Source of the DNA: Bacteroidales bacterium
Lineage (GTDB): Bacteria; Bacteroidota; Bacteroidia; Bacteroidales; UBA932
DNA length: 64,000 bases
Reading direction: 5' to 3'
NCBI GenBank assembly: GCA_012744435.1
Contig: JAAYCA010000052.1
Location: forward strand, 1-64,000
Positions 30,311 through 59,208 of the stretch are shown here, in pieces (position 1 is the stretch's first letter; each line of letters begins with the position of its first letter). A model generated the notes under the pieces. It worked only from the letters and a program-made list of their open reading frames with translations. It made no database searches and was not told the origin of the DNA. The position numbers and the translations under genes are program-made.

Positions 30311-31358
30311 GGTGATCATCGTTTTTTGCCCTTGGATGGGCGGATTTATACACTTGCTGCAGCCGCTCGATGGAATTGTGCGTGTAGACCTGGGTCGCCG
30401 CCAGGGAGCTGTGGCCCAGCAGTTCCTTGATGGAATTGAGGTCCGCTCCCCCGTCCAGCAGCTCCGTGGCCAGCGTGTGGCGCAGGACGTGCGGGGACTT
30501 CCTGCCGCTGATGCCGCCGACGGGTCCGAGGGCCGCCTTGACCGCCCGGTCCACATAGACCGGATAGAGCCTGCCGCCTCCCGGCGTCTGCAGGAGCGGA
30601 GCGTCCGGGGTCGTATCCGCGCATTTCAAAGAGTCAACTGCATGTAAATATAACAATATTTCCTCACATAGTGAAGGAAGCAGGGGAATTTCCCGCATTT
30701 TGTCTCCCTTGCCGCGCACGCGCAGTACCTGCCGCGACAGGTCCAGGGAACTCCGGTTGAGTGAAATCAGTTCGCCCCGCCGGATCCCCGTCCCGAACAG
30801 CATCCCGAGGATCATCCGCTGCAGCTGGTCTTCATACTTGCCATACTCCAGCACCCCCTTCGTCTGCTCGAAGTACGCGCGCATCGATTCGTCCCGGTAG
30901 AACACCGGCAGCCGTTTTTCCTGCCTGGGCCGCGCCACGAGCCGCACCGGGTTGCTCTCCAGCACGCCCTCCCGCATCAAATACTTGCAGAATCCGCTCA
31001 GCACGCTCATGTGCAGGTTCACCGTCTTCGCCCCCTCCCCCTTCTCATCCATCAGATACACCTCATAGCTCCGGATCGTCTGGACGGACAAAATTTCGCG
31101 CAACTGCGCAGCGTCAGCAAGGGTCTGCCCAGCAGAACCGTGGCCGCCCGTGGCCTCGTGAACGGGAGGGGCCCAGCCGTCAAGCTGGGAGGGATGAGCG
31201 CGCAGCGCGAAGTTCTGTCGGGCAGAGCCCTTGCTGCACGGAGCCTCACCGGCAGAAACAAATGAGGAATAATCTTCCAGGACGCCGCGGTAGATCTCGA
31301 CGGTACGGGGAGAGTAGCGGCGGACGGAGGAGAGGTATGTCAGGTAACGCTCGATCAT
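30300..31358 (-). CDS. Tyrosine recombinase (XerC-like) with an in-frame insertion
   Basis: TGIRRGELISL, HVLRHTLATELLDGGADLNSIKELLGHSSLAATQVYTH catalytic motifs; N-terminal domain contains an extra APCSKGSARQNFALRAHPSQLDGWAPPVHEATGGHGSAGQT segment. Confidence 0.85.
   Translation of the reverse strand: MIERYLTYLSSVRRYSPRTVEIYRGVLEDYSSFVSAGEAPCSKGSARQNFALRAHPSQLDGWAPPVHEATGGHGSAGQTLADAAQLREILSVQTIRSYEVYLMDEKGEGAKTVNLHMSVLSGFCKYLMREGVLESNPVRLVARPRQEKRLPVFYRDESMRAYFEQTKGVLEYGKYEDQLQRMILGMLFGTGIRRGELISLNRSSLDLSRQVLRVRGKGDKMREIPLLPSLCEEILLYLHAVDSLKCADTTPDAPLLQTPGGGRLYPVYVDRAVKAALGPVGGISGRKSPHVLRHTLATELLDGGADLNSIKELLGHSSLAATQVYTHNSIERLQQVYKSAHPRAKNDDHHGD
31115..31236 (-). repeat. In-frame palindrome-bounded insertion element, copy 1 (XerC-like recombinase)
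   Basis: Near-perfect terminal arms CAGCAAGGGTCTGCCCAGCAGAAC (31115-31138) / GTTCTGTCGGGCAGAGCCCTTGCTG (31212-31236); core CGTGGCCGCCCGTGGCCTCG on the plus strand. Confidence 0.8.
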
Positions 31359-56832: not shown

Positions 56833-59208
56833 TTATTTCCGCTCCTGCCAAGGACGGATCTTGGCATATTTGAGCAGCAGGAGCTTCTCCCCGTAGGCAT
56901 CGAAGCGGATGCGGGCTTTCATGTCCGGAGCGCTGCCGGACAGCTCGAGAATGGTGCCGGCCCCGAAGCGGTTGTGCTCGATGCGCTGGCCCTCGGACAG
57001 TTCCGTCATCGGCACCCCCACGAAATCAGCATCGGCCAAAACATTTCTGGCCGTTACGGCGGGAGCACCGGCTTGCCGCCGGGAGGCGTGGCCGCCCGTG
57101 GCCTCGCGGACGGGGGAGGCAAACGGGGTCCGGGCTGCAGGTCTGCCACCGAAACGCTCGAGCCGGCCGCCGGTGAAGCGGCTGCCGAAGCCGCCCCATT
57201 CGTGCGTAACGCCCGTATTGTCGAAGTCCTCCTCATCCAGCGGATTCTCTACAAAGCGCGGATCGATCTCCTTGAGGAAACGCGACGGCGCATTCGACTC
57301 GTGCTTGCCGTTGCGCATGCGCGTGCCGGCAAACGAAAGCGCCACCGCGCACTTGGCCCGCGTCACGGCCACGTAGAAAAGCCGCCGCTCCTCCTCCACC
57401 TCCGACTTCGCCGAAAGCATCGTCACGCTGGGGAAGAGGTTCTCCTCCATCCCGGCCACGAACACGTACGGGAACTCCAGACCCTTGGAAGAATGGGCCG
57501 TCATCAGCGCCACCTTGTTGTTGGTGTCCTCCTCCCCTTCCGCCACGTCCACGCTGCTGAGCAGGGAGACGTTCTCCAGATAATCGTCCAGGGTGAACAC
57601 CCCCACCTCGCCGCCTTCGTCGGCATATTCGGCCGCCTCGTCGGTACGCTCCTCGACGAACTGCGCCACGCTGTTGATGAGTTCGTCCAGGTTCGCCAGC
57701 CGCGAGAGTCCTTCGATGGAGGTGTCCTGCTTGTAGGAAGCATACAGCGAACTGCGGTCGGCGATCAATTTTGCCAGCTCATAGGCGTCGGTGGTCCTGA
57801 CAAGGACCGAGAGCTCCGTGATCATCGCATGGAACGCCTGCACCTTCGGCACCAGCTGCGCCGCTTCGAACAGCGGACAGCCCCGCTGCCGGGCCTCGGC
57901 CTCCACGGCCGCGAGCGCCTTGTCGCCGATCCCCCGCGCGGGTTTGTTGACCACCCGCCGGAACGACTCGTCGTCGCGGGGATTGACGACCAGCTTGAAA
58001 TAGGCCATCATGTCCTTGACCTCCGCCCGCTCGAAGAAAGAGTTGCCGGAATAGATCATATAGGGAATGTTGCGCCGGCGGAGCTGCTCCTCCAGGGCGC
58101 GGGACTGGGAATTGGTCCGGTACAGGATGGCGAAATCCTGATATTGCGCCCGGGCGCGACGCATCCGGTCCTGGATCTCGGAGACGATCATTACCGCTTC
58201 TTCCTGCTCTGTATAAGCCTTGATCAGGCGGATGCGCTCCCCCGTCTCGCCCACGGCGTAGCACTCCTTCGGGATGCGGCCTTCGTTGTGCGCGATGACG
58301 GAATTGGCTGCGTCCACAATCACCTGCGTGGAGCGGTAGTTGCGTTCCAGGCGGAAGAGCCTGCACTCCGGATAATCCTTCTTGAAGCTGAGGATGTTCT
58401 CGATCCGGGCGCCGCGGAAGGCATAGATGGACTGGCTGTCGTCGCCCACCACGCAGAGGTTGCGGTGGAATTGCGCAAGTTTCTTCAAGATCAGGTACTG
58501 GGCCCGGTTGGTATCCTGGTACTCGTCCACCAGGATGTGCGTGAAGCGGCCGGCGATGGTCTTCAACGCCTCCGGGTCGTCGTGCAGCAGGCGGTTCATG
58601 TTGAGCAGGATGTCGTCGAAGTCCATCACCCCGCTCTGCTTGAGCTTCTCCTGATAACGCTTGTACACTTCCCCGAGCCGGGGCCGCTTGCTGTGGTAAT
58701 CCTGTGTCTGGAGCTCCTGGCTGGAAAGATAGGACTGCACCGAAATGAGGTTGTTCTTGGCCATGGAAATGCGGGAAAGAACATCCCGCGGCTTGTAAAC
58801 CTTGTCGTCGAGGCCCATTTCCTTCAGACAGGCCTTGACGGCGCTCTGCGAATCCGAGGCATCGTAGATGGTGAAATGCTCCGGATAGCCCAGCGAATCG
58901 GCGTATTCACGGAGGAAACGCACGAACACGGCATGGAAGGTCCCCATCACGACGCGGCGCACCCGCCGGCCTCCCACCATCGCGGCGATGCGCTCCTTCA
59001 TCTCCCCCGCCGCCTTTTTGGTGAAGGTCAGCGCAAGGACGCGCGCCTCCTCCTGCAAGGCAAGGATATAAGCCACCCGGCTGGTCAGGACGCGGGTCTT
59101 GCCGGAGCCCGCTCCGGCTACGATCAGGACGGGTCCGTCCACACAGCACACAGCCCGCCGCTGCTCGTCGTTCAACTCCTCCAGAATCAAGTTCACATTC
59201 TCTTCCAT
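56833..59208 (-). CDS. UvrD/PcrA-family ATP-dependent DNA helicase
   Basis: LNDEQRRAVCCVDGPVLIVAGAGSGKTRVLTSRVAYIL, DEYQDTNRAQYLIL, TAHSSKGLEFPYVFV. Confidence 0.93.
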   Translation of the reverse strand: MEENVNLILEELNDEQRRAVCCVDGPVLIVAGAGSGKTRVLTSRVAYILALQEEARVLALTFTKKAAGEMKERIAAMVGGRRVRRVVMGTFHAVFVRFLREYADSLGYPEHFTIYDASDSQSAVKACLKEMGLDDKVYKPRDVLSRISMAKNNLISVQSYLSSQELQTQDYHSKRPRLGEVYKRYQEKLKQSGVMDFDDILLNMNRLLHDDPEALKTIAGRFTHILVDEYQDTNRAQYLILKKLAQFHRNLCVVGDDSQSIYAFRGARIENILSFKKDYPECRLFRLERNYRSTQVIVDAANSVIAHNEGRIPKECYAVGETGERIRLIKAYTEQEEAVMIVSEIQDRMRRARAQYQDFAILYRTNSQSRALEEQLRRRNIPYMIYSGNSFFERAEVKDMMAYFKLVVNPRDDESFRRVVNKPARGIGDKALAAVEAEARQRGCPLFEAAQLVPKVQAFHAMITELSVLVRTTDAYELAKLIADRSSLYASYKQDTSIEGLSRLANLDELINSVAQFVEERTDEAAEYADEGGEVGVFTLDDYLENVSLLSSVDVAEGEEDTNNKVALMTAHSSKGLEFPYVFVAGMEENLFPSVTMLSAKSEVEEERRLFYVAVTRAKCAVALSFAGTRMRNGKHESNAPSRFLKEIDPRFVENPLDEEDFDNTGVTHEWGGFGSRFTGGRLERFGGRPAARTPFASPVREATGGHASRRQAGAPAVTARNVLADADFVGVPMTELSEGQRIEHNRFGAGTILELSGSAPDMKARIRFDAYGEKLLLLKYAKIRPWQERK
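57071..57125 (-). repeat. In-frame insertion element core, copy 3 (truncated; uvrD/pcrA linker)
   Basis: Plus-strand CGTGGCCGCCCGTGGCCTCG identical over 20 nt to copy 1, short TTGCC/GGCAA ends; encodes SPVREATGGHASRRQ. Confidence 0.7.

Follow-up and report, generated by a model that had tools for sequence, protein, structure and literature searches.

Palindromic elements with a conserved pseudoknotted core occur in-frame within protein genes of a Bacteroidales lineage

In the genome of a Bacteroidales bacterium (G000; 2.04 Mb in 82 contigs) a small palindromic element is found inside three protein-coding genes of the stretch analysed here, i.e. positions 1-64000 of contig C40 (64,000 nucleotides; the window). 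The genes encode a XerC-like tyrosine recombinase, RecG and UvrD/PcrA (Table 1). The core of the element, GAGGCCAYGGGYGGCCAC, was found at all three sites for which the initial annotation had quoted it, in the coding sense and in one common frame, and it encodes the peptides given there for XerC, RecG and UvrD. The arms of the two full copies had been described as complementary within each element and different between the two, and this was likewise seen in the intact copies of xerC and recG. The matches of these two copies to the covariance model are far above chance; the uvrD copy is degenerate.

Table 1. Genes and palindromic elements of the window, and helices of the recG copy (scores: covariance model made from copies in other genomes)
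Feature	Coordinates	Strand	Bits	E-value	Description
XerC-like tyrosine recombinase gene	30300..31358	-			352 aa; in-frame element in the N-terminal SAM-like domain; Pfam PF00589/PF02899
Type A element in xerC	31115..31236	-			Intact, sense; arms CAGCAAGGG...CCCTTGCTG flank the core
Covariance-model match in xerC	31124-31226		92.8	9e-23	
recG gene	50660..52936	+			758 aa with this start; in-frame element between the DEQHRFG and TATPIPR motifs; Pfam and gene call
Type A element in recG	51944..52072	+			Intact, sense, 129 nt; arms TTGGCCGAAGGAG...CTCCTTCGGCCAA flank the core
Covariance-model match in recG	51959-52058		86.4	5e-21	
P4, 5' strand, in recG	52016..52020	+			CCCAT; partner ATGGG at 52031-52035
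P5 hairpin in recG	52027..52040	+			GGCC-ATGGGT-GGCC; loop pairs with the 5' strand of P4 (pseudoknot)
uvrD/pcrA gene	56833..59226	-			797 aa; decayed element in the linker preceding the tudor-like domain; Pfam
Degenerate element in uvrD	57072..57156	-	25.8	1.3e-4	P4/P5 part and core retained, P2/P3 mostly gone

A search with the core and then with a profile, together with the covariance model, located ~33 copies in G000. They are of two main types, type A (...CTTCGCTTCGCTCATCCCTCCCA-hairpin-GGGCCCCTCCCGTTCACGAGGCCACGGGCGGCCACGG...) and type B (...GTCCGGCTGCGCCGGACCCCTCCCA-hairpin-TGGGCCCCTCCCTCTTACGATGCCGAGGGTGGCACGG...), both within long complementary arms. With a covariance model built on 73 diverse copies the element was detected in 108 of the 121 genomes of the same genus, in 10 of the 26 genera of the family and in 5 of the 251 genomes of an order-wide draw; beyond the family it is present in three genomes only of the sampled order. 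The search of the genome and its relatives that had been proposed at the outset establishes a dispersed family. The exact core pattern in IUPAC notation occurs in at least 117 stretches of GTDB genomes, and among the matches listed nearly all are from Bacteroidales, including Candidatus Cryptobacteroides species. Nothing relevant was matched by the Rfam covariance models, with limits of E<=1 for the window and E<=0.5 for six loci. Carriage by phages was considered and rejected, as the exact core pattern had no match among the viral contigs of IMG/VR. In some places elements of types A and B lie close together as a convergent pair, and each member has arms of its own (C20:4438/4587, C20:52601/52764 and C33:10718/10914 in G000, L019:3064/3176, and L328).

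Each copy is predicted to form a long hairpin, P1, made of freely varying self-complementary arms around a conserved core of ~75 nt, which would hold the helices P2 and P3 and a P4/P5 pseudoknot. The elements measure ~125-175 nt. In a set of 165 copies the median is 156 nt and the arms, of ~41 nt, are 84% paired; the median score of a copy with its own arms is 49.6, versus 17.6 when the arms are swapped between copies. A prior-free covariation analysis yields P1, P2, P3 and the crossing helices P4 (CCCNN/NNGGG) and P5 (NGCC/GGCN). In alignment A1, P4 (columns 90-94/105-109) is 99.5% paired, with CCCGT/ACGGG, CCCTC/GAGGG and others as variants, and P5 (columns 101-104/111-114) is 99.6% paired, with an outer pair that varies between GC (31), AT (28), TA (2) and CG (1). 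The final structure has 83.5% of its cells paired (64.3% after shuffling) and a covariation score of 0.449, versus 0.140 for shuffled and at most 0.131 for slid versions. Shared ancestry is left in by the shuffling, but the large divergence of the arms between copies makes ancestry alone an unlikely cause of the covariation. Between orthologous copies 102 double compensatory changes stand beside 185 single pair changes, although these pairs are not independent. The swapped-arm scores and the covariation agree with the earlier proposal that the arms are maintained for pairing and not for their sequence. Two more covariations were detected that are non-Watson-Crick (columns 96/110 and 59/89), with T-T or C-C on the strand on which the core is written here (the core strand) and A-A or G-G on its complement. 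These probably reflect tertiary interactions that involve the pseudoknot and both CCCTCCC tracts.

The mismatches that remain in the arms are not distributed evenly over the strands. Strand-symmetric decay would lead to equal counts, whereas on the core strand A.C exceeds G.T in P1 (95 versus 40, p 2e-6) and mismatches containing C exceed those containing G (199 versus 49). Since this latter skew is common to sense (61:7), antisense (39:10) and intergenic (95:32) copies, it is a property of the element and not of coding or of the direction of transcription, and it implies that the strand opposite to the core tolerates G.U, G.A and G.G. The opposite strand also has the more stable fold in 149 of the 165 copies (112 for the arms alone, 78 in a control with symmetric mutations). 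On that strand P5 and P4 make up an ordinary H-type pseudoknot, with stems of 4 and 5 bp, a first loop of 1 nt and a last loop UCGURA, whereas on the core strand the same pairs would need a 1-nt loop across the shallow groove of the 5-bp stem, which established pseudoknot geometry disallows. Because the mismatches are tolerated in the arms of the opposite strand and the P4/P5 loops are workable only there, we infer that it is this strand whose fold is maintained, as RNA or as single-stranded DNA.

The comparison for RecG covered 110 sequences, taken from metagenomes and from genomes of the same genus. The loop between LWxKG and PPHVLVMTATP measures 6-24 nt in most of them. In the clade to which G000 belongs, the loop is occupied by type A in the sense orientation, with several unrelated arm sequences, by type A in antisense (L122, L220-L222), by type B in sense, or by a further type, C, in one orientation or the other, in some cases with two at once. 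All inserts are open and have a length divisible by three. L224 and L216 represent the same site empty (CCTTCT directly followed by ATT) and filled (CCTTCTA-135 nt-ATT). In the AlphaFold2 model of RecG the residues of the insert (433-471) have a predicted local distance difference test score (pLDDT) <50, and the remainder of the model is confident. The loop of XerC that carries the element is 0-57 nt long in ~25 congeneric orthologues and 153 nt here, with type A in sense; in G008 it contains type B in antisense. The UvrD linker harbors intact elements, in either orientation, in L182, L183, L185, L186 and L189. Orthologues usually have no such segment; the segments are therefore insertions and not conserved domain sequence, and the patterns in the three loops show recurrent insertion into tolerant loops. 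This was the outcome of the comparison of orthologues suggested in the initial annotation, the recG and xerC loops being mostly empty in the relatives.

It was also considered that the arms might derive from the target, by inverse duplication of flanking DNA on insertion. Arms shared in their inner but not their outer part (L012/L053 and L020/L048) had hinted at this, but the pair L224/L216 shows that both arms are new, which rules it out.

The 22 in-gene copies of G000 are located in 18 genes, 14 in sense and 8 in antisense, and several frames are used. The claim that the family stands in the coding sense and in one frame hence holds for the three genes of the window and otherwise as a bias, not as a rule. 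The core is open in five of the six frames, and this includes the intergenic copies; the single closed frame, in which UCACG/UUACG is read as a stop, is used once. As the frames are open even outside genes, this property of the core accounts for most of the frame pattern, and the remainder is a sense bias. When homologous sites are merged, the ratio of core strand to opposite strand in the transcript is 30:11 within genes and 35:14 between co-directional genes (25:4 between genes in an earlier test on fewer loci). Combined this is 65:25 (p = 3e-5), the opposite strand being present in 25 of 90 cases, so that the folded strand is under-represented in transcripts. It appears that a folded strand in the transcript is costly, and more so outside translated sequence. 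The tabulation of strand and frame that had been put forward earlier has brought to light a sense bias over independent sites.

The initial annotation also pointed out that all three hosts are recombination or helicase genes. This is the local case of a wider trend: 13 of the 18 hosts in this genome act on nucleic acids, versus 2 of 20 length-weighted random genes (Fisher p = 2e-4; functions were assigned by hand from family names). Besides RecG, UvrD and XerC the hosts include RsmF, RsmE, RlmI, RluA, TrmB, QueH, RNase R, PolA, DnaX and a THUMP-like protein, and the TrmB gene (C36:32214-33293) contains two elements. The additional hosts in other genomes are mixed (~2 of 13); for all hosts together the count is 15 of 31 (p = 0.006). 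The hosts of the Rickettsia palindromic elements (RPEs) include TrmB, a DNA helicase and DNA polymerase III (PMC3767692), and this overlap suggests a common or convergent tolerance of such proteins, not common descent of the elements.

Indications of movement come from G157, a genome of another genus with ~34 near-identical copies. At the ends of these copies A[CT]GATTATCCGCAAAATTACC forms inverted repeats, flanked by AT-rich direct repeats of 8-10 bp that represent target duplications, e.g. AAAATTTTTT (L373) and ATTTTTTCAT (L371). The same ends also bound dispersed derivatives of 60 bp without the core, and mobility in G157 therefore rests on the ends; the core as its determinant is ruled out. 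The short end-only palindromes were also considered as empty targets of the core, but they contain sequence of the 3' arm and are deletion derivatives. In addition, G157 has nested palindromes of ~400 bp with the ends of the element and a different interior (L389, L397 and L410). In G064 the copies are situated inside larger mosaic repeats (L342-L352) bounded by CCGGAATGCTGCTCGCAGGC and its inverse, and in G000 every copy has its own arms. In our reading the core may be a module that is taken along by different carriers, or one that has a role of its own. DDE transposase genes (DDE_Tnp_1_6; 62% mutually identical) adjoin the element at L039:1-1427 and L083:2190-4014, the former with a stop codon that apparently lies in an element arm. 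They are possible partners, to be taken as leads only.

We consider it likely that the copies are lineage-specific, small and non-autonomous mobile palindromic elements, similar to RPEs or to miniature inverted-repeat transposable elements (MITEs), that insert in either orientation. Their dispersal and patchy presence, the empty sites, the repeated occupation of one loop by elements that differ in kind and in orientation, the covariation of arms and core and the preservation of frame are all directly observed. Elements would insert either way round, and within genes only frame-keeping copies in tolerant surface loops would survive, in which case the peptide is probably retained in the host protein; the copies in genes would then be the survivors of many insertions. 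Several observations fit this picture less well. No transposase with matching ends was found among the end pairs of G157 or in G000. The RecG pair L216/L224 has no target duplication longer than 1 nt, in contrast to the copies of G157, so that more than one mode of movement may exist. G157 has no orientation bias (6:5), and the orientation statistics rest on a home-made gene caller, for which the strand agreed between two callers in 385 of 387 cases. Finally, complementary arms could also be kept by template switching during replication (quasipalindrome correction) without selection on the fold, the element then being an ordinary decaying MITE. Orthologous copies do differ by block changes of the inner arm, such as CCAAAAC/GTTTTGG versus CCGGGAC/GTCCCGG between L212 and L211, which switching, or conversion by another copy, would yield; and the arms of intergenic copies are kept as well as those of genic ones. 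However, the residual mismatches should then be strand-symmetric, in conflict with the skews in P1 and in all three contexts, and neither the pseudoknot pairs nor the conserved unpaired positions of the core would be accounted for. We therefore regard template switching as an unlikely origin of the arm complementarity.

A possibility that goes beyond the mobile-element reading, and that we put forward tentatively as rather less than probable, is that the family represents a selfish structured RNA in its genomic form. The opposite strand would combine the conserved H-type pseudoknot, two hairpins and a long closing stem free in sequence. It would act as RNA, in the manner of a ribozyme or as the RNA component of a mobile ribonucleoprotein, and would be eliminated from host transcripts except where ribosomes prevent it from folding. 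If so, the arms would be unconstrained in sequence and could even consist of the inverted ends of transposons residing in the genome. Movement as single-stranded DNA by RAYT-type (REP-associated tyrosine transposase) Y1 transposases, in the manner of repetitive extragenic palindromic (REP) sequences and their hairpin doublets (REPINs), seems improbable. Two RAYT-like genes are present in G000 (C14:27351-28245 and C31:35190-36081), with weak matches in G064, G157 and G174, and the convergent A/B pairs are reminiscent of REP doublets; but both matches in G000 are below the Pfam cut-off, and the gene on C14 is flanked by hairpin repeats of its own, in tandem (CCATCCGGANTTCCCCGGATGGGGCATACATCCC and GGTCCACC...GGACCGGAAGGAGCGGAAACGGG) and unrelated to the element. 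The elements also lack a constant tetranucleotide at the foot of the hairpin, there is no replication-strand bias (16:12 and 52:53), and the G157 copies have the inverted ends and target duplications described above. An in-frame, structured segment within conserved genes could further be one that is removed, by mRNA splicing, ribosome skipping or excision from the protein. This we judge highly improbable, since in RecG and UvrD both orientations occur at one and the same codon, so that removal at the RNA level would demand activity of both strands, a removed segment would not require a constantly open frame and a length divisible by three, and no intron or intein family was matched. That host proteins select a conserved functional peptide or domain is scarcely tenable, even though the window copies share PPV/IxEAxGGHG in one frame: at the same loop, antisense and other-frame copies give peptides of unrelated sequence, the loop is empty in most orthologues, and intergenic copies retain the same nucleotide core. 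For the family as a whole this explanation is refuted.

The palindromic elements of Rickettsia and Wolbachia are ~100-150 bp long and many are located in protein genes without breaking the frame, at solvent-exposed positions, with different element families at the same site in orthologues (PMC10969869, PMC3767692). The present family resembles RPEs as dispersed palindromes of ~150 bp that are in-frame in unrelated protein genes and missing from orthologues, and the modelled disorder of the RecG insert may be compared with the exposure of the RPE peptides. The analogy to RPEs that was drawn initially is borne out by the in-frame copies and the empty orthologues. It is a likeness of kind only, by description and with no claim of homology, as the phylum is unrelated and the conserved pseudoknotted core, the arms unconserved in sequence, the presence of both orientations in genes and the inferred fold strand set the family apart. 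MITEs are similarly short, dispersed and non-autonomous, and the ends and duplications in G157 are in line with this; in G000, however, the arms differ per copy, so that there is no common terminal inverted repeat, and it is the middle that is conserved and not the ends. REP/REPIN sequences and GTAG- or CGTC-tagged repeats are single stem-loops of 20-40 bp with a constant tag, also short palindromes that are sometimes found in open reading frames and often as inverted doublets (PMC3733652). They differ from the branched fold of 125-175 nt described here, which has no such tag. Integron attC sites combine a conserved fold with variable sequence and one active strand. The present element shares the conserved fold, the variable sequence and apparently the use of one strand, but has no conserved R/L boxes or gene-cassette context, and its conserved part is apical and its variable part basal.

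The initial annotation knew of no established counterpart in Bacteroidales, and no description was found in the searchable literature, to which subscription papers are largely external. As far as that literature goes, the kind is known from Rickettsia; new are its occurrence in this lineage, the arms free in sequence, the core with its pseudoknot, the inferred strand and the shared hot spot. So far, protein-coding palindromes have been regarded as peculiar to Rickettsia and Wolbachia, with a mechanism out of reach; selfish DNA inside working proteins is now also found in an unrelated and abundant Bacteroidales lineage of gut and rumen. This lineage probably offers thousands of copies. There are recent ones with sharp limits, sites that are unoccupied at the same codon, and a conserved core that allows its strand to be deduced. 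With these it becomes possible to test by what route the elements move, whether host proteins retain the peptide and what makes enzymes that act on nucleic acids preferred hosts. For annotation, the family accounts for odd inserts of 40-50 residues in many Bacteroidales housekeeping proteins.

Two minor observations concern variants and relatives of the element. The P3 loop is enlarged in L003, L008, L021, L025, L028, L087 and L102, apparently by insertion into the palindrome, and several of these have an extra small GCAAGCNAGCTTGC-like hairpin. Type C (GTGCGTGGGC...GGCCATCCCCCTYGAGGGGGTGCAGGGGGTGA) is a second in-frame palindromic family, found in either orientation in the RecG loop of L121, L124, L218, L223, L228 and L267; G000 has two copies (C7:19814 and C39:37706), both in sense within genes.

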